From Saccharothrix saharensis (GTDB lineage: Bacteria > Actinomycetota > Actinomycetes > Mycobacteriales > Pseudonocardiaceae): a DNA stretch of 64,000 nt. The stretch lies in NCBI RefSeq assembly GCF_006716745.1, contig NZ_VFPP01000001.1, positions 496,001 through 560,000 of the forward strand, written 5' to 3'. Made by a program: the position numbers and the translations under genes. Positions 53,338-61,966 of the stretch are shown here, in pieces (the stretch's first letter is position 1; every line of letters begins with the position of its first letter). A model generated the notes under the pieces. The model did not search any database and had not been told where the DNA came from. It was given only the letters and a program-made list of their open reading frames with translations.

Positions 53338-53470
53338 ACTCGACGCGGCACCCGCCGCGTGAGCTGCCCGCCCGGGGAAGCCACCCGAGCCGCAGCCCTT
53401 CGCCCGAGCCCGAGCCGGCGCGAGGGCCAGAGGGCCGCCCGGGGGCCGGCGGCCCGGATGGTCGGCTGTC

Positions 53471-53774
53471 AGCGGTCCGGGTCGTGAGCGGTCCGGGTCG
53501 GGTCGTGAGCGGTCCGGGTCGTGAGCGGTCCGGGTCGTGAGCGGTCCGGGTCGTGAGCGGTCCGGGTCGTGAGCGGTCCGGGTCGTGAGCGGTCCGGGTC
53601 GTGAGCGGTCCGGGTCGTGAGCGGTCCGGGTCGTGAGCGGTCCGGGTCGTGAGCGGTCCGGGTCGTGAGCGGTCCGGGTCGTGAGCGGTCCGGGTCGTGA
53701 GCGGTCCGGGTCGTGAGCGGTCCGGGTCGTGAGCGGTCCGGGTCGTGAGCGGTCCGGGTCGTGAGCGGTCCGGG
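53471..53774. repeat. Tandem repeat, 16-bp unit AGCGGTCCGGGTCGTG, 18 full copies plus one partial
   Basis: Copies start at 53471 and 53487 (the second carries a 5-nt GGTCG duplication) and then every 16 bp from 53508 to 53748 without a mismatch. A partial copy begins at 53764. The perfect identity implies recent expansion. On the minus strand all three frames are open because three units make 48 nt (a 16-residue period), but this is a by-product of the repeat, not evidence for a protein. Each unit contains GGTCCGGGTC. It lies in the gap between the CPBP gene and marR. Confidence 0.95.
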
Positions 53775-54018
53775 CCCTGGACGCCGCCGGGCCGGCCGTT
53801 TTCTCCGGCTAACGTGAGAGATGCGGTTCGGGTTGTCCGAGGTTGCACGCTTCGCCCGACCGGGTGATCCGGGCTCGGCACGGTCCCGGCGAACCGGCAG
53901 GTCGGGGTGGTGGTCGGCCGGTTCGAGCACCACGCGCACGGTGGTGAACGGGTTGGTCGCGGCCCTGTCCGCGCGCTCCAGCGAGTCGGGCCGCACGGCG
54001 GCCGCACGTCGTGGCCGG

Positions 54019-54480
54019 TCAGGGGTCGGCGGCGATCCGGTCCAGCACCCGGTGGAACACGCGGTCCAGGGTGGTGGCTTCCTCCGGCGTCAGGTCGTCG
54101 AAGACGTAACGGCGCACGGTCGCGACGTGGCCCGGTGCGGCGGACTCGATCGCGGCGCGTCCGGCGGCCGTCAGGCGCACCATCGATCCGCGCGCGTCCT
54201 CGGCGCACTCCTCGCGCACGACCAGGCCGCGCTTCTCCATCCGGCCGATCTGGTGGGACAGCCTGCTGCGCTCCCAGCCGACGAGCGCGCCCAGCTCACG
54301 CGACCGCACCACGCCGTCCGGCGCCTCCGACAGCGGCACGAGCAGGGCGTAGTCGGCGTTGGACAGCCCCGAGTCGCGCAGCAGCCGGCGCTCGACGGCG
54401 CTGTGCAGCTCGCGGTTGAGTGCCAGGTAGGCCTGCCACACCCGCGCCTCCCGCTCGTCCAGCCACCGCGGTCCGCCCAT
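54019..54480 (-). CDS. MarR family transcriptional regulator
   Basis: 153 aa. RVWQAYLALNRELHSAVERR, LSNADYALLVPLSEAPDGVV, GWERSRLSHQIGRMEKRGLV and EDARGSMVRLTAAGRAAIES make a complete MarR winged helix with dimer helices. ATG 54480 was chosen (GTG 54489 possible). It is divergent from a luciferase-like gene that is now truncated, so the original target is broken. The operator repeats between them are intact. Confidence 0.9.
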   Translation of the reverse strand: MGGPRWLDEREARVWQAYLALNRELHSAVERRLLRDSGLSNADYALLVPLSEAPDGVVRSRELGALVGWERSRLSHQIGRMEKRGLVVREECAEDARGSMVRLTAAGRAAIESAAPGHVATVRRYVFDDLTPEEATTLDRVFHRVLDRIAADP

Positions 54481-54494
54481 GTGGGTCACGCTAG

Positions 54495-54542
54495 CAACAT
54501 GTTGACGTGTCATCAATGTGCCCGCTAGATTGTTGACGTGTC
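54495..54542. promoter_or_regulatory. MarR operator region: palindrome plus GTTGACGTGTC direct repeat
   Basis: CAACATGTTG (54495-54504) is a perfect palindrome. GTTGACGTGTC occurs at 54501-54511 and again at 54532-54542, 31 bp (three turns) apart, the second overlapping the GTG of the luciferase-like gene. This fits a MarR dimer controlling both directions. Confidence 0.5.
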
Positions 54543-54762
54543 CACAAAGGGAATGCAGCTCGGCGTCTACAGCTTCGGTGACCGGCACCCCGACCCGGTG
54601 ACGGGCGAGCGCGTGTCGGTGGCGGACAAGCTCGCGCAGACCGTCGAACGGATCAAGCTGGCCGACGAGCTGAACCTGGGCTTCTACGGGTTGGGCGAGC
54701 ACCACCTGGCCGACTACTCGATATCGAACACGCCGATGTGGGATTCCTCCCACGCCAGATAG
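54538..54762 (+). pseudogene. Truncated LLM-class (luciferase-like) oxidoreductase
   Basis: Only the first 60 codons are family sequence: MQLGVYSFGDRHPDPVTGER, KLAQTVERIKLADELNLGFY and GLGEHHLADYS. A normal member has about 340 residues and would continue with SAP-x-V-V-L-type sequence after DY(S/A)(I/V)S. Here it changes to NTPMWDSSHAR and stops at 54760-54762. The break (about 54720-54730) is next to the palindrome TCGATATCGA and marks the left edge of the accessory region. The gene is no longer functional. Confidence 0.8.
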
Positions 54763-54846
54763 CCGCCCGGCCGACCGTCCCGGCCACGCCGCGACCGGCC
54801 CACTCCCCCGCTCCCCGGTGGGACGCTTCCCCTCCGGAGGGCCACG

Positions 54847-55506
54847 GTGGGTGACCGGATCGTCCCCAGCCTCACGTTCGGCTCCGGGCCCGAGCCGGCG
54901 GCCGGCGCACCACCGCCGTACCCCACGGCAGCGCGTCACGACCGCGACGTCCCCGGGAATCGGTGCCATCCCGACGGTGCTCCCCTCCCCCACGTCGAGG
55001 GATCCACCCCGCGACGACGCGAACTGGATCTGCGCCGGACCGAGGCGCCCGGCCCCGGCGTTCTCGCGAGACCGCGCACACCGCCGGTCCGTCGCTACGC
55101 CGTGCGCGCGTTCGACGGCAAAGGCCGCATCGCCGACCGGCCGCTGTTCGGATTGCTGGGATGGGATCGCGGGACGCCGGTGTCGATCCACGCGCACGAC
55201 AGCGGGGTGTTGGTGATGCGGCGCGATCCGGACGGCGGCTCCGCCCTGACCGAGCGGGTCATGGTAGCCGTGCCTGCCCCGCTGCTGCGGTGGTGCGGGT
55301 TCGGATCGCGGGAGCATGTCTTGCTGGTGGCGGTGCCGTCGTTGTCGGCGCTGGTGGTGCACGGCCTGGAGGTCGTGGACCGGCTGCTGCCCGACGCGGA
55401 GCGGATGGTGTCGGAGGCGTCCCCGGTCCGGGAGCAATTGGGGGACCTGCCGACCGGTTCGGCCGGCGCCGGTGCGCGGCGTGAGCCGGAGGTGGCCGGT
55501 GACTGA
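54847..55506 (+). CDS. Double AbrB/SpoVT-like protein, partner of tyrosine recombinase (module 1)
   Basis: 219 aa from GTG 54847 (GGAGGG 6 nt upstream). The first 85 residues are low-complexity. Two AbrB-like halves follow: YAVRAFDGKGRIADRPLFGL then GVLVMRRDPDG, and VMVAVPAPLLRWCGFGSREH then VLLVAVPSLSALVVHG. Both follow the pattern G-R-hydrophobic, LG(W)/CG, V-x-hydrophobic, hydrophobic strand. It is clearly homologous to the protein at 58665-59207, and each precedes and overlaps a recombinase gene. An AbrB-type fold would bind DNA as a dimer or swapped barrel; a role as recombinase accessory or repressor is inference. Overlap with the next gene: 8 nt. Confidence 0.65.
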   Translation: MGDRIVPSLTFGSGPEPAAGAPPPYPTAARHDRDVPGNRCHPDGAPLPHVEGSTPRRRELDLRRTEAPGPGVLARPRTPPVRRYAVRAFDGKGRIADRPLFGLLGWDRGTPVSIHAHDSGVLVMRRDPDGGSALTERVMVAVPAPLLRWCGFGSREHVLLVAVPSLSALVVHGLEVVDRLLPDAERMVSEASPVREQLGDLPTGSAGAGARREPEVAGD

Positions 55507-57187
55507 GGTGGGGTCCGTCGGCGGCGTCGCGGCCGGGGGCCGTGCCGATCCCGGCGCCGTGTCGGTGGCGCTGCAGGTGCTCGAGCAGATGGGGCTGACG
55601 CCGGCCGATCTGGTCGGTGCGGTGGTGGCGCCGAGGGTTCCGACGTTCGCGGAGCTGGTGCCGCAGGCGTTGCGGGCGGTGTCGAGCGAGGCGTCGCGTC
55701 GGTCGTACCGTTCGTATCTGACCAAGGCGGTGGCCGTGTGGGGGTCACGTCGTCTGGACGAGGTGCGGCCGGAGGACGTGCGCGACTTTTTGGGGCACGT
55801 GCGGGACACGGTGGTGGTGCGGCGGTCGAACACCGGTGGGTCGAACGCGATGCGCAATGCCTATCAGGCGTTGTCGTATCTGTATCGGCATGCGGTGCAG
55901 CGTGGGTTCATCGGTGAGCGGCAGGTGGTGTTGCGGCAGGTGGAGATGCCGAGGAAGCAGTCGTCGCGGCGTCATGCCGTGAGTCCGCAGTTGATCTCGG
56001 AGATCTTCCGGGTGGCCCGGGAGACGGGTGTGGATCCGGAGTTGGACGTGTTGCTGTTGCGGTTTCATCTGGAGACCGCTGCGCGTACGGGTGGTGCGTT
56101 GGCGTTGCGGGTGCGGGATCTGGATGTCGACCAGTCGTTGGTCCAGTTGTGGGAGAAGAGCGGGACGCGGCGGTGGCAGCCGGTGTCGCCGACGTTGATG
56201 GGGCATCTGCTCGAGCATGCGCGTCGGCGGGGTGCCCGGGACGACGGGGACAAGGTGTTCCGTCGCCTCGACGGTGCTGCGATGAGCAGGAAGCGGTACG
56301 GGTCGTTGTGGGATCGGCTGCGCGGGCGTCTGGAGAGTGTGCGGGTGGCGCAGGTCAGCACGCATTGGCTGCGGCATACGACGTTGACGTGGGTGGAACG
56401 CAACTTCGGTTACGCGGTGGCCCGGGCCTTCGCCGGGCATGTGGTGTCGCAGTCGAGTCTGCACGGGTCCACCCAGACCTACGTCAAGGCCGGTATCGGC
56501 GAGGTCGCCGCGGCGGTGCAGGCGTTGACCGGTGAGCGTCATCCGTTGGCGCCGTCGGCGGACTCGGCGGGTGCGGTGGAGGGGGTGTCGACCGCGGTCG
56601 GGTTGCCGCGTGTGGTCGACGGTTCCCGGGAGCGTGTGGGGTTGCGTGAGTGGTTGCGTGCCGAGGATGCCCGGACCGCCGGGCTGGGGAGTCTGTTCGA
56701 GTGGGTTCTGGCGCTGTACGAGGAGGCTGAGCGGGCCGGGAAGCCGCGGCCGGACGGTGATGTCCTGGTCGAGATCACCGGGGCGTCGGTGTACGCGGTG
56801 CGGGCGGCGCAGAGAAAGGTCGCCGATGCCCTGAGGCGGCGGGCGCAGGACGATCTGGTCGAGCGGATTCGCCGGTTGCGCGAGGAGGCCGAGGCAGCCG
56901 GCATGCCTCGGCCGAACCGGGCGGCGTTGGCCGAGGCGACCGGGGTGACGGTTTCTGCTGTGCGTGGGGCACTCGCCCGACTCAACATGCCCGCGCGGGA
57001 GCGGGGGCAGGACGAGAGGCAACGTGCTCTGGTCGAACGGGTCCGACTGTTGTGTCGGGAGGCCGAGCGGGCGGGGAGGCCTTGGCCGGGTCGTCGTGCT
57101 TTGATCGACGCGACCGGGGAGACGGCTCACGCGGTGCGGTTGGCGCAGGCGGACATCCGAGCCTGTAGAGGGGTGCGGGCTGATTGA
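55499..57187 (+). CDS. Tyrosine recombinase with three C-terminal helix-turn-helix-like repeats (module 1)
   Basis: 562 aa from GTG 55499. Residues 40-130 are a SAM-like core-binding domain. Catalytic residues: Arg in LETAARTGGALAL, Lys in QLWEKSGTRRWQPV, HWLRHTTLTWVERNFGYAV (His, Arg), AGHVV and Tyr in GSTQTYVKAG. After residue 350 the protein has three imperfect repeats of about 52 residues: LYEEAERAGKPRPDGDVLVE, LREEAEAAGMPRPNRAALAE and LCREAERAGRPWPGRRALID, each continuing (I/A)TG-x-(S/T)-x-x-AVR-x-A. These look like helix-turn-helix units and are absent from the module 2 enzyme. They may recognise arm-type sites. Confidence 0.85.
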   Translation: MTEVGSVGGVAAGGRADPGAVSVALQVLEQMGLTPADLVGAVVAPRVPTFAELVPQALRAVSSEASRRSYRSYLTKAVAVWGSRRLDEVRPEDVRDFLGHVRDTVVVRRSNTGGSNAMRNAYQALSYLYRHAVQRGFIGERQVVLRQVEMPRKQSSRRHAVSPQLISEIFRVARETGVDPELDVLLLRFHLETAARTGGALALRVRDLDVDQSLVQLWEKSGTRRWQPVSPTLMGHLLEHARRRGARDDGDKVFRRLDGAAMSRKRYGSLWDRLRGRLESVRVAQVSTHWLRHTTLTWVERNFGYAVARAFAGHVVSQSSLHGSTQTYVKAGIGEVAAAVQALTGERHPLAPSADSAGAVEGVSTAVGLPRVVDGSRERVGLREWLRAEDARTAGLGSLFEWVLALYEEAERAGKPRPDGDVLVEITGASVYAVRAAQRKVADALRRRAQDDLVERIRRLREEAEAAGMPRPNRAALAEATGVTVSAVRGALARLNMPARERGQDERQRALVERVRLLCREAERAGRPWPGRRALIDATGETAHAVRLAQADIRACRGVRAD

Positions 57188-57437
57188 CCGGCGAGATGGT
57201 TCATTCGTCGCAGTCGGGACCGATCGGGCACAGGTCCAGCGCAACACCCCTGGGTATCGGGCTGGTTGCGTGGCCACGCGACGAGCTCGGCGACCTTCGG
57301 CGACCTTGCGGGCTGAAGAAGAATTCCGCGCCCACATGACCTCCGGGTCCGTTGTGGGGCGGCTCGATGTCGCGTTGCGTCGTTTCCGCTTCCCGGTCAC
57401 TCCGCTCCGGATCCGCGCCGTCTGATCGAGTTAGGTT

Positions 57438-57683
57438 TTAGTTAGCACTGAAGTAATCATGAGTATCGGGCCACTCGTGATTATGGCTGGCGAACGGACA
57501 TCCGTCGTACCGTGGCCGGCGTACGCGTTCGGCCGTCGCCGGGCCGTTGCGCAGTTCCAGCTGCTTCTCGACGAGCTGCTCCAGGTACTCGGCGGCGGGC
57601 ATGCCGGTCTCCACTCGCCAGGCGGACGCCGAACGGTCCATCCGCACCGTCCGACGCGAGGCCACTGACCGACTGTTTGTCAC
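57438..57683 (-). CDS. Hypothetical 81-aa protein
   Basis: 81 aa from GTG 57683, no clear ribosome-binding site. The central part RMDRSASAWRVETGMPAAEY, LEQLVEKQLELRNGPAT has the GC-rich third positions of a real gene and resembles small accessory or antitoxin-like helices, but no family was recognised. It may be a remnant. Confidence 0.3.
   Translation of the reverse strand: MTNSRSVASRRTVRMDRSASAWRVETGMPAAEYLEQLVEKQLELRNGPATAERVRRPRYDGCPFASHNHEWPDTHDYFSAN
57454..57483. repeat. Imperfect 11-bp inverted repeat (10/11 matches)
   Basis: TAATCATGAGT (57454-57464) and ACTCGTGATTA (57473-57483) flank 8 nt (ATCGGGCC). Two 11-bp arms with an 8-bp centre is the geometry of a tyrosine-recombinase core. 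It lies about 270 bp downstream of the module 1 recombinase. Confidence 0.35.
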
Positions 57684-58664
57684 GTTGCGGGCCCACTCTG
57701 TCGAACGGTTGTGTGCGAGCCAGTGAGCGTTCCATCCCGACCGAGTTCGTCCTCCGGCCCGTGCACAGCCGCGATTAAGCCTGCTCGGCGGTCCAGTCAG
57801 CGCTATGCCGGAGCCGCGTCGAGCATCGTCGCTGATCGGAGAAGGTCTTGGAGCAGGTCGAGAGTGGAGACCAGAAGGTATCCGTCCAGGACGGCGACCG
57901 GCAGGGAGAGAGGGGCACGTGGAAGGTTGGTGGCGGGTCAAGGGACGGGCACCAAGCCAGTGGGCGGTGAGCGCCAGGCGGGGGAAGAGGAGGCACGATG
58001 GCCTGGTTCGGGTACCGCAACGCCCGGGCTGGCCGCGTCGACTGTCAGCAGACCAGCGGCGGCGTCCGAAGACAGTGCTCCCGGCCGGTCTGGCGTGCCG
58101 ATGTGGTGGAGCACAGCTACGCCACCCGTTACGTCCTATGACGTTCTACTTTTCGGCTGACCTGCAGGCTTCGAGCGCCCACAAGACTGACATGGGCACC
58201 CTCGATGACCGTCGCTCTGCGACCTTTCACCAGCCCCTGAGGTGTCCCGCCATTCCACTCCACGAAATATACGCAGCAATCTGTTTCGACCGTTGAAAGC
58301 CGCTTTTTCAGAGCGTGAAAAGTTTGGCAACCCGCACCGGATCAGTTAGAGTCATGATCTCAAACTTCCGTTCCAAAGCAGCACGGAGTCGACCGCCTCA
58401 GGGACGTATCTGCCCCGACGAACGAACAGGAGGCTCCGAAGCCGCGAAACCCGCACGATCCACGCACCTCCTGTGGGAGCACCGCAACATTGGAGAATCA
58501 GGCAGCGCGGGCCTTTAGTCGCACGGTCTGCTTATCACGACCACGCCGCCCGGCCTGACACCCGCCGCAACCTCTCGCAGATACACAAGCATCCCAATCG
58601 CACCCAACGGTCTCACTATGGAACGGACGAGATCGTACGGCGACTTATCCACCAGCGGAGAGGC

Positions 58665-59207
58665 ATGAATAATTGGACCGACACATTTCACGATCAACCC
58701 ACGCCTATGACACTACCGAACTCCGATCCCGAAGACGTCGTCATCCGGGCACTGTCGCTACCAGCGGTTCTCCCCGGTCGATCCCGCGCCCGATCAAGAA
58801 GACTCGATGTCGGCGACTTGTACGCCAGGGTCAACGACTCCACACTGCGCTTCGCGTTGTCCTCAGCGGACCACCGTGGACGTCTGGCCAGTCAACAGAT
58901 CTTCAATCACTTGGGCTGGCAGACGGGTCAGGGCCTCGCAGCCGTCTTGGGGCGCAACTATCTTCTGCTCCGCCCGGACCCGGACGGTGAACTGATCGTC
59001 GGGAAGCGCGGGCGGTTGCTGCTGCCGGTCAACCTGCTGCACTATTGCGGACTCAGCACAAATCGGCAGATTCTACTGATCGCCGCAGTCGAACATGACA
59101 TGCTCATCGTCCATCCACAACAGAACCTCGCCGAGATGGCCCGAGGGTTCCACCAGTCCCAGATTCACCACGACGTACACACAAGGACCTCTCTTGGCCA
59201 CAACTGA
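58665..59207 (+). CDS. Double AbrB/SpoVT-like protein, partner of tyrosine recombinase (module 2)
   Basis: 180 aa from ATG 58665 (GGAGAGG before it; ATG 58707 possible). Two AbrB-like halves: FALSSADHRGRLASQQIFNH, LGWQTGQGLAAVL, LLLRPDPDG; then KRGRLLLPVNLLHYCGLSTN, RQILLIAAVEHDMLIVHPQ. Positions align with the module 1 protein (LGW, DPDG, CG, LLxA, LxVH). Codons are less GC-biased than in chromosomal genes, indicating transfer. The stop lies 14 nt inside the recombinase gene. Function unknown; a DNA-binding accessory role is inferred. Confidence 0.65.
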   Translation: MNNWTDTFHDQPTPMTLPNSDPEDVVIRALSLPAVLPGRSRARSRRLDVGDLYARVNDSTLRFALSSADHRGRLASQQIFNHLGWQTGQGLAAVLGRNYLLLRPDPDGELIVGKRGRLLLPVNLLHYCGLSTNRQILLIAAVEHDMLIVHPQQNLAEMARGFHQSQIHHDVHTRTSLGHN

Positions 59208-60213
59208 CGAACTGGCCATGGCGCGCTTATTCCTCGAACGCATGGGCATTTCCCTCGAAGAATTGTCCTACACCGATCCGCGACCGACGGCGCCCACAAT
59301 CGCGGAATTCGTTCCGACCGTCAGCGGCGCGGTGCCAGCCGGAACCCGCCGAACCTACACACCGTACTGGCACAAACTCGTCCATGTCTGGGGTGCAGTA
59401 CGCATCGACGAGATCAACGCCACCGATATCAACTGGTTCATCGGACACGCCCGTACGACCGCGGTCGTACGGCGTTCCAGCCGCGGAGGGCACAGTGCCG
59501 CACTACACGCCTACCGCGCGTTGCGATGCCTCTACCGATACGCGATCTGGAACAGGGTGCTCGACCCACGAGACGATCCCACCGAACTCGTGACCAAGCC
59601 GAAAACCGTCAGATCCACTAGACACGCGATCGACAACGGCCTGCTCAGCGACATCGTGGACGTCGCATCCACAACCGGCAACGATCCTGCCTTGGACGCG
59701 ATCATCATCCGCCTGCACCTGGAAACCGCAGCACGTCGAGCAGGAGGACTCGGCATCCGACCACGTGACCTCGATCCGCAACGGTCACTGATCCGACTCC
59801 GCGAGAAAGGGGACATCACTCGTTGGCAACCGGTCTCCCCCACCCTGATGACCAACCTATTACACCTGACACAGACCCGCGGCCACCGCGACGACGACAC
59901 CCCGATCCTGCGCAACCGCAAAGGCAAGCCGATCACGGCACGACGCTATGACCATCTCTGGGAACGCATCGGCGAACACATCGACACCGTCAGAACCCTC
60001 GGCATCACCACGCACTGGCTACGACACACAACCCTCACCTGGGTAGAACGCAACTTCGGCTACGCCGTCGCGCGGGCCTACGCCGGACACGCCGCCTCAA
60101 GCACCCGCACCGGCGTCACCACCACCTACGTACGCGCCGGCATCAGCGAAGTAGCCGAAGCCTTGGCCGCGCTGACCGGCGACCCTCACCCGCTCGCCCC
60201 CAAGCCGCTCTGA
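59194..60213 (+). CDS. Tyrosine recombinase (module 2)
   Basis: 339 aa from TTG 59194, with AAGGA 6-7 nt upstream; ATG 59218 is the fallback. Catalytic residues: Arg in LETAARRAGGLGI, Lys in RLREKGDITRWQPVSP, HWLRHTTLTWVERNFGYAV, AGHAA and Tyr in VTTTYVRAG. The 19 residues around the HxxR motif are identical to the module 1 enzyme. It ends right after the catalytic domain, without the three C-terminal repeats of module 1. Two TTA codons (59227-59229 and 59860-59862) are present. Overlap with the partner gene suggests translational coupling. Confidence 0.9.
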   Translation: MATTDELAMARLFLERMGISLEELSYTDPRPTAPTIAEFVPTVSGAVPAGTRRTYTPYWHKLVHVWGAVRIDEINATDINWFIGHARTTAVVRRSSRGGHSAALHAYRALRCLYRYAIWNRVLDPRDDPTELVTKPKTVRSTRHAIDNGLLSDIVDVASTTGNDPALDAIIIRLHLETAARRAGGLGIRPRDLDPQRSLIRLREKGDITRWQPVSPTLMTNLLHLTQTRGHRDDDTPILRNRKGKPITARRYDHLWERIGEHIDTVRTLGITTHWLRHTTLTWVERNFGYAVARAYAGHAASSTRTGVTTTYVRAGISEVAEALAALTGDPHPLAPKPL

Positions 60214-61204: not shown

Positions 61205-61966
61205 GTGCTTGTCTACCCATCCGCGATCGACCTGTCCAGTTCGCATCTCCGCTTCCTCGCCCGGGAACTGACCGTGCATCGGCGCCGGATCGGCAGCAGG
61301 TGGCGCCGCCTCGATCCCGGACGCCAAGCCCTGCTGGTCCTGGCCCACTTACGCTGCGGCGACACCTACACCCGTCTCGCCGCCGGGTTCGGCATCGGCC
61401 TGGCCACCGTCTGCCGCTACATCCACGAAGCGGTCGAACTCCTGGCCGCACTGGCACCGGACCTGGCCGACGCGGTGCACGTCGCCGCGCGCAAGGCCTA
61501 CGTCATCCTCGACGGCACCCTGCTCCGGATCGACCGAGTCGCCACCGACCGCCCGTACTACTCGGGCAAACACAAGCGACACGGGATGAACGTCCAGGTT
61601 CTCGTCGACCCGGCCGGACGCCTGCTGTGGACCTCGCCCGCACTGCCCGGCTCGGCCCACGACCTGACCGCGGCACGCACCCACGGCATCGTCGACGCCC
61701 TGACCACAGCGGACATCCCGTGCTGGGCGGACAAGGCCTATCGAGGCGCGGGCGGTCCGATCCGCGTGCCCTACCGAGGCAGGTGGCACAACCTCTCGCC
61801 CGGCCAACAGGCGGTCAACCGCTCCCACGCCCGCATCCGCGCACTCGGCGAACGAGCCGTCTCCACCCTGAGGACCTGGCGACTACTGCGCAGACTCCGC
61901 TGCTCCACCACCCGCATCACCAACCTGACCCGAGCCGTTCTCGCACTCCACCTCGCCGCCGGATGA
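61205..61966 (+). CDS. IS5-family transposase
   Basis: 253 aa. The N-terminal half has a helix-turn-helix (LAHLRCGDTYTRLAAGFGIG, LATVCRYIHEAVELLAAL). The catalytic DDE residues are expected in YVILDGTLLRIDRV (Asp), LPGSAHDLTAARTHG (Asp) and the region after WADKAYRGAGG (Glu around LGERAVSTL). The frame is intact, so the element may be active. GTG 61205 is 6 nt after AGGAG. Confidence 0.9.
   Translation: MLVYPSAIDLSSSHLRFLARELTVHRRRIGSRWRRLDPGRQALLVLAHLRCGDTYTRLAAGFGIGLATVCRYIHEAVELLAALAPDLADAVHVAARKAYVILDGTLLRIDRVATDRPYYSGKHKRHGMNVQVLVDPAGRLLWTSPALPGSAHDLTAARTHGIVDALTTADIPCWADKAYRGAGGPIRVPYRGRWHNLSPGQQAVNRSHARIRALGERAVSTLRTWRLLRRLRCSTTRITNLTRAVLALHLAAG

Follow-up and report, generated by a model that had tools for sequence, protein, structure and literature searches.

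Lambda-type integrases carry an arm-binding domain, and their core sites are flanked by arm sites that are bound by a second DNA-binding activity. The helpers with which integrases build recombination complexes are mostly host factors, arm-binding domains or Xis proteins. Several tyrosine recombinases, small accessory proteins and target specificity are described for the elements named SEs, GInts, RITs and Tn554 in the accessible text of one report, which also suggests translational coupling in SEs (PMC10214605). Here, we analyzed a stretch of 64,000 nucleotides (nt) from Saccharothrix saharensis (contig NZ_VFPP01000001.1, positions 496,001 to 560,000), called the window below, which holds two modules, each composed of a tyrosine recombinase gene and an overlapping upstream gene for an AbrB-like partner. 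We propose, with moderate confidence, that the family of module 1 is an island integrase whose coupled, MraZ-like partner binds palindromes at the island ends and builds or directs the recombination complex. Coordinates without prefix are window positions; G with a number denotes a genome (G000 is the window's own), and L with a number denotes a fetched locus.

Two Modules With One Gene Plan

In module 1 (A type, att-proximal), the partner gene (54847-55506, + strand; start codon uncertain, conserved part from about 55000) runs into the recombinase gene (55499-57187, +; GTG start; PF00589, E 8.1e-9). In module 2 (B type, no attachment site seen), the partner gene (58665-59207, +; ATG start) runs into a recombinase gene that starts with TTG (59194-60213, +; PF00589, E 3.8e-12). 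The frames overlap by 8 and 14 nt, respectively, and the initial annotation was right in seeing one overlapping two-gene plan at both loci. The two recombinases are 49% identical over 332 aa, the HWLRHTTLTWVERNFGYA block included, which confirms the kinship that had been read from the residues around this block. A two-sequence test aligned 90 aa of the partners at 32% identity (E 2e-15). Six residues (R182, K206, H275, R278, H300, and Y313), which we take to be the catalytic residues of tyrosine recombinases, did not vary among the 30 A and B recombinases compared. Besides its catalytic domain, the recombinase of module 1 gave a weak match to a SAM-like core-binding domain, and an arm-binding domain was matched in neither window recombinase.

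The recombinase of module 1 also has a C-terminal extension of about 200 aa made of repeats. Three related repeats (EAERAGxPxPxRxAL...TGxTxxAVR) have the look of a helix-turn-helix, with a weak GntR hit as the best match (E 0.17). Because the polarity was not established, these repeats cannot be called lost in module 2, as had been claimed. The recombinase tree ruled out a recent tandem duplication of equal modules, which had already been denied: the recombinase of module 1 falls in a clade with that of congener G163, and that of module 2 in a B clade of five. The modules are also not equal copies with the same role, as first supposed, since module 1 belongs to an attachment-site-adjacent clade and module 2 to a clade without such sites upstream, and A + B pairs recur. 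Modules 1 and 2 are diverged paralogues that occupy different positions.

Partner and Recombinase Are Encoded Together

Relatives of the module 2 recombinase (E <= 1e-20) were found in 55 of 150 genomes of the same family, and a scan of 84,980 species genomes with a recombinase alignment gave 454 relatives. The best 80 of these 454 hits, corresponding to 78 distinct loci, were kept and supplemented with 2 viral loci from IMG/VR to give 80 loci. By their record titles, these best 80 hits came from Saccharothrix, Amycolatopsis, Kibdelosporangium, Lentzea, Micromonospora, Actinoplanes, Nocardia, and other genera. There was no match in a contig scan of genomes with the module 2 partner as single query, nor in phage and plasmid records queried with the L066 partner and the module 2 recombinase. 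In a phylum sample of 396 genomes (G000 included), partner matches covering at least 119 of 166 model positions occurred in three other genomes, and 19 further genomes gave short, weak ones.

The partner lay directly upstream of the recombinase in all 80 loci, which had been chosen by recombinase alone. In the 150 same-family genomes, a partner was present upstream of 70 of the 74 recombinase matches that were 300 codons or longer. Conversely, of the 99 partner matches with 130 codons or more, 83 had a recombinase match as the next one downstream within 1.5 kb, and in 70 of these 83 pairs no more than 150 nt separated the two matches. Partner homologues thus mostly have a recombinase, in agreement with the conserved pair of the initial annotation, and these counts support the view that the pair is a real, conserved unit, close to obligate. 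With recombinase starts placed by a Shine-Dalgarno and start-codon heuristic within 75 nt of the partner stop, the frames overlapped in 81 of 84 pairs, by exactly 4 nt in 64 of the 84. This overlap exceeds chance and suggests translational coupling.

The coupling bears on a different role for the partner. Xis proteins bind attachment arms, and the partner may be such a recombination directionality factor, acting in excision only, an alternative that overlaps with our proposal in that both bind arms and that we regard as possible but doubtful. An excision factor encoded with overlap in 81 of 84 pairs would be made whenever the integrase is made, which works against stable integration. Furthermore, the predicted fold of the partner differs from those of known Xis proteins. 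The partner-int order does resemble the xis-int operon of actinomycete integrative and conjugative elements (AICEs) such as pSAM2, as given in the accessible text of PMC3218068.

Variant modules with about 0.6-0.8 kb between the partner and recombinase frames were seen at L069:7306-7932, L071:16514-17200, and L070:12988-13827. At L015, the same place as L069, the partner is one gene further upstream, and the open reading frame ending just before the recombinase looks membrane-protein-like by eye. An extra partner gene that faces the recombinase 3' end (P->R-> <-P) and has no recombinase match of its own was found in G086 (3752124 and 9332511), G016 (51856), G085 (3751495), and L190:9128-9574.

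Predicted Fold of the Partner

Neither window partner matched Pfam or NCBIfam up to E 10. Among 32 family members, with E up to 0.1, the AbrB model TIGR01439 matched 16 (best 9.9e-8) and PF04014 matched 11 (best 9.7e-7), and the uncharacterised phrog_31174 matched 32 of 32. The module 2 partner was modelled with AlphaFold2 as the first row of a 74-row alignment, with a mean predicted local distance difference test score of 82.3 and a predicted template modelling score of 0.67. The model contains two bbabb units (strands and helices 61-104 and 110-151) and a C-terminal helix. In Foldseek, its twelve best PDB matches were eleven MraZ-family chains and the archaeal 2glw (E 4.4e-4 to 1.1e-2). The two AbrB-like halves noticed earlier therefore reappeared as a predicted double-AbrB fold.

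Module 1 at the Left End of a Genomic Island

A chromosomal luciferase-like monooxygenase gene is cut upstream of module 1. Its N-terminal piece (54499-54732, +; aa 1-77), the first fifth of the gene, is left in the window, and its C-terminal piece (aa 72-366) lies about 103 kb downstream at G000:C1:653679-654563. Among 25 genomes of the genus searched, 19 had hits to this monooxygenase, 17 with a long open frame and 2 split (G000 and G163), and 6 had no hit. In G163 the C-terminal part is 44 kb downstream. The alignment of G000 with G163 began in the chromosome, spanned module 1 (54013-57227, two pieces at 78-85%), and went no further. Because the gene is split and the alignment stops after module 1, the left end of an island lies in the window; these comparisons show module 1 to be the end-proximal integrase module of a genomic island of about 103 kb inserted in the monooxygenase gene.

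At this end, the core-like ATCGAACAC of the left attachment site, attL (54723-54731, +), matches the tRNA-Leu acceptor end CTCGGACAC of relatives. It starts 15 nt before the end palindrome GTGGGA-TTCC-TCCCAC (54738-54753, +), the same distance as CTCGGACAC in tRNA-Leu loci. A short imperfect core (ATNTCSAAC in G000) is common to the left and right sites, attL and attR, and to the uninterrupted site of relatives, and the host/element junction was located outside the palindrome. The target of this island is the monooxygenase gene and not a tRNA gene, at a site resembling the acceptor end, and the tRNA-Leu(GAG) of G000 itself has no palindrome. A reading of the monooxygenase site as a T-arm mimic in reverse orientation was dropped in favor of the acceptor-end match in the same orientation. 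Just outside the island, at 53469-53996, open reading frame translations show a tandemly repeated PDRSRPGPLTTRTAHD unit, that is, a DNA tandem repeat in chromosomal sequence.

In the wider family, tRNA-Leu(GAG) was present in 15 of the first 29 loci. Of 104 modules having a partner, 42 had a tRNA-Leu gene on the same strand no more than 450 nt before the partner, one with anticodon TAG; the 104 modules gave 102 distinct recombinase sequences after duplicates, and two antisense matches without partner were dropped. These positions show the 3' end of tRNA-Leu(GAG) to be a frequent target of the family of module 1. The tRNA 3'-end 16-mer GTCCCCCCTCSGACAC was searched in 24 chosen genomes, of which 22 matched (G021 and G022 not), and 30 of 34 places were fetched. 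As a control, the pattern read backwards gave no match in the 24 genomes. In complete or near-complete genomes, a second copy in the same orientation was 107.7 kb (G079), 152 kb (G072), 88.5 kb (G120), 87 kb (G055), and 193 kb (G137) away, so that these five have a direct repeat of the tRNA 3' end at both island ends. A search for a 30-nt tRNA repeat within 20 kb returned only the tRNA itself, probably because the islands are larger. In G120 the core of an A module lies between the two copies, and two elements therefore stand in tandem; some of the islands, whose spans reach 193 kb, may comprise several elements. The A module of G055 is at the GTCCCCCCTCSGACAC copy without tRNA, which shows that either island end can carry the att-adjacent module.

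Another element of 10-12 kb, apparently at the same tRNA-Leu(GAG), was seen in G059 (5329601-5340300), G099 (3546370-3557356), and G088 (about 6435-6447 kb). Its ends are like CACTATTCACAC / GTGTGGATAGTG, and it lies between the tRNA and the next module or core.

A Palindrome at a Fixed Offset

In 31 of 41 tRNA-Leu loci, a 6-4-6 palindrome in which 5 or all 6 arm pairs match was found at exactly +15, compared to 0-3 loci at every other offset from 7 to 39. The offset was counted from the first acceptor-stem base, and two tRNA-Leu genes without a recognisable acceptor motif had been dropped beforehand. The arms vary between elements yet stay self-complementary (GTGGCA/TGCCAC, GTCGCA/TGCGAC, GTAGCA/TGCTAC, GCAGCA/TGCTGT, and GGGGGA/TCCCCC). 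In the 24-genome set, where 22 tRNA-Leu genes were read, the score at +15 was 5-6 in 10 of 10 beside a module or remnant and 0-4 in the 12 others. The window's island has exact GTGGGA-TTCC-TCCCAC twice between 546 and 656 kb of the contig, once near each end (right copy at 653574), and a one-mismatch copy at 653651, nearer the right junction. In G163 the palindrome is at both island ends. In G072, GGGGAAATTTCCCC is at both ends of one island, and the abutting next site has GTGGGATCCCTCCCAC on the same core. The initial annotation had advised looking for conserved sequence at the ends of loci carrying the pair; among the seven islands examined, the far-end copy of the palindrome is clear in three.

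The palindrome can be read in another way. AbrB and MraZ proteins are transcription factors, and the palindrome precedes the partner start, in what is likely the promoter region and where an operator would be; the partner might thus be an autorepressor of the partner-recombinase operon, with its operator beside the attachment site by chance. We consider this unlikely, since the palindrome recurs at far ends without a further partner match (G000, G072, and partly G120; G163 by recombinase search only) and its spacing is fixed relative to the tRNA acceptor stem. Moreover, B modules have the same two-gene plan, and a palindrome was found upstream of 2 of 25 (3.4 expected). The initial annotation had suggested that the partner is needed with the recombinase, for example as directionality factor, synapsis factor or repressor. 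Sequence does not settle the choice, but a pure repressor is disfavoured by the far-end palindromes and their absence beside B modules.

Palindrome Divergence Compared With Partner and Recombinase

In partial Mantel tests over 32 loci, the palindrome correlated with the partner given the recombinase (r 0.448, p 0.0005) and not with the recombinase given the partner (r -0.208, p 0.99). Judged by these distances, palindrome divergence tracks the partner and not the recombinase. An AbrB pseudo-consensus in print is TGGNA-N5-TGGNA, according to the accessible text of PMC11497800. The common arm GTGGNA contains this TGGNA, but inverted and with 4 nt between, compared to direct repeats with 5 nt in that pseudo-consensus.

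That the recombinase itself binds the palindrome, while the partner does otherwise, e.g., stabilises or folds the recombinase, could explain why some recombinase columns associate with the arms as strongly as the best partner column, but we judge it improbable, given the negative partial correlation, a host/element junction outside the palindrome, and the lack of any arm-binding match in both recombinases. Column-wise covariation was also tried as proof of the partner reading the palindrome and was rejected as not discriminating, as recombinase columns reach equal z.

Lineages A and B

A tree of 102 recombinases was labelled A where the upstream DNA had a tRNA-Leu, a palindrome-bearing core, or a core resembling CTCGGACAC (67), and otherwise B (35). 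The label changed 10 times on the tree, compared to 29 in shuffles, of which 0 of 500 were as low. There were two B-only clades, one of 22 (94 in the Shimodaira-Hasegawa-like approximate likelihood ratio test) and one of 5 including window module 2 (89). A single origin of all B modules was neither supported nor rejected (approximately unbiased test, p 0.188). Loci with two full modules had one A and one B in 18 of 18 cases, 16 by tree clade and two, L186 and L066, by missing site only and outside the B clades. Of 14 genus genomes with a recombinase, in a count that leaves a few weaker matches unclassified, 6 have B (5 by clade, G157 by missing site) and all 6 also have A, and 8 have A alone. 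The island of G163 at the same monooxygenase site has no B inside, and B is elsewhere in that genome. Only one recombinase was found in 20 of 41 same-family genomes having a full-length one. A and B are convergent in 8 of 14 close pairs.

The DNA similarity of the B module to its relatives ends at the borders of the pair, and a comparison of five distinct relatives, of which two had been fetched twice, showed no conserved flanks around B modules. Because A-alone genomes exist and this similarity stops at the pair's borders, B is regarded as an optional second module. Although the A + B make-up of all 18 two-module loci (16 by clade, 2 by missing site) and the six catalytic-pattern residues invariant in both types would suit a heteromeric integrase like XerC/XerD or two-recombinase elements, we give this little weight, with A lacking B in 8 of 14 genus genomes, no B inside the G163 island, and a single recombinase in 20 of 41 same-family genomes. 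A DDE transposase gene (61205-61966; PF13359, 1.1e-27) closely follows module 2.

Discussion

We infer that the partner recognises the short palindrome that marks island ends. In the proposed island integrase, the partner would bind the end palindromes and supply arm-site binding in trans, an activity for which the recombinase seems to have no subunit or domain of its own. This role is assigned to the partner because no arm-binding domain was matched in the recombinases. As such an accessory subunit, the partner would help the synaptic complex to form at the tRNA core, or direct it there, and would give each island's ends their own identity. More weakly, the B module may be an auxiliary recombinase-partner pair of the islands having it, which would not be needed for site choice.

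A bolder form of this proposal, which we put forward only tentatively, is that the partner is an interchangeable reader of end identity, the swappable specificity subunit of a split integrase, with A and B as two readers in one island. As several islands can pile up on one identical tRNA-Leu core, the core alone cannot distinguish island ends. The partner would read an element-specific palindrome at both ends, and only the element's own ends (or attP and the tRNA) would then be synapsed.

A number of results weigh against the proposed island integrase and its palindrome-binding partner. There were 16 of 99 partners without an adjoining recombinase match, and 10 of 41 tRNA loci lacked a palindrome of at least 5 of 6 pairs at +15. 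The far-end match was clear only in G000, G163, and G072 of the seven islands and partial by eye in G055, G079, and G120; G137 had no left palindrome to compare, and of five islands put to an automatic far-end test, only G055 and G072 were flagged. The palindrome upstream of 48 of 67 A modules (8.4 expected) is a partly circular count, because the palindrome was one mark for labelling A. The position in the likely promoter region would also suit an operator. Furthermore, the partner evolves faster than the recombinase, which could favor it in the Mantel test, and single-column association (best z 12.0 vs. 12.2) does not separate the two proteins. One residue speaks for reading by the partner: at the position of R115 in the module 2 partner, which precedes a conserved glycine in a predicted hairpin loop of the second AbrB half, 14 of the 15 partners whose palindrome has G at arm position 5 carry R or K, compared to 2 of the 34 whose palindrome has C there (three more loci have mixed arms). 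However, this link was picked afterwards from 133 columns x 6 positions, and it is not significant after phylogeny because the independent pairs on the tree number only 1 (starred branches) or 5 (all).

The recombinase that seems to insert large gene islands in soil actinobacteria is thus accompanied, in almost every case, by a gene for a two-domain DNA-binding partner. Downstream of the modules, no gene besides the pair recurs widely, and the largest recurring gene clusters, upstream of the tRNA, are chromosomal in look. Ten large proteins of the window's island, out of 73 mechanically called genes, were scanned with Pfam; they included Cse1 and Cas3 (type I-E CRISPR), NB-ARC/TPR proteins and a SARP-type regulator, three had no match, and no FtsK-like Tra or Rep was among these ten. 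The Cas8e/Cse1 and Cas3 genes are at G000:C1:591254-595582 (L062:11254-15582), inside the island beyond the window, and the NB-ARC/TPR proteins are elsewhere in the island. Boundaries of 44 to 193 kb are now available for islands in antibiotic-producing genera. If true, the proposed mechanism could explain several islands sharing one tRNA site and would offer a swappable specificity part.

Among known systems, tRNA-targeting islands and pSAM2-like AICEs are similar in having a tyrosine integrase beside att, the tRNA 3' end duplicated at both ends, and a small gene just upstream of int. In contrast, the partner here is a predicted double-AbrB protein and not a known Xis, a second paralogous module occurs, and spans reach 193 kb. 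Among the 80 loci, no rep or tra genes recurred within 8 kb of the modules. The literature searched, with most subscription papers outside its reach, did not describe any AbrB/MraZ-like protein as the partner of a tyrosine recombinase, and AbrB is absent from the accessible text of an AICE paper (PMC3218068).

MraZ shares with the partner two tandem AbrB halves in one chain and provides its best PDB fold matches. The MraZ box, TGGGN, is contained in the arm GTGGGA. However, the MraZ family of Pfam matched 0 of 32 members up to E 0.1, and two NCBIfam MraZ models matched 1 of 32 each (best E 0.045 and 0.089). The partner genes stand beside integrases, often at tRNA-Leu, and not at the head of a division or cell-wall operon, and the proposed site is variable. 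By its predicted model, the partner is MraZ-like in architecture and no member of MraZ.

SEs, GInts, RITs and Tn554 likewise have more than one tyrosine recombinase and small accessory proteins, but in the accessible text of PMC10214605 their recombinases are side by side with accessory genes in common, whereas here each recombinase has its own AbrB-like partner, B is optional, and A and B are in some cases distant from each other or convergent. The arrangement of those elements, with two or three adjacent recombinases that are all conserved, was not found here, given A-only genomes and convergence in 8 of 14 close pairs. Compared with lambda-type integrases, the second DNA-binding activity would here be a separate protein from an overlapping gene. 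The partner was present in every locus examined among the best 80 of 454 hits (78 loci) and in the 2 viral loci, and an actinobacterial family of 454 hits with a coupled AbrB/MraZ-type partner and a palindrome code that can be read would extend the known integrase helpers by a new kind.

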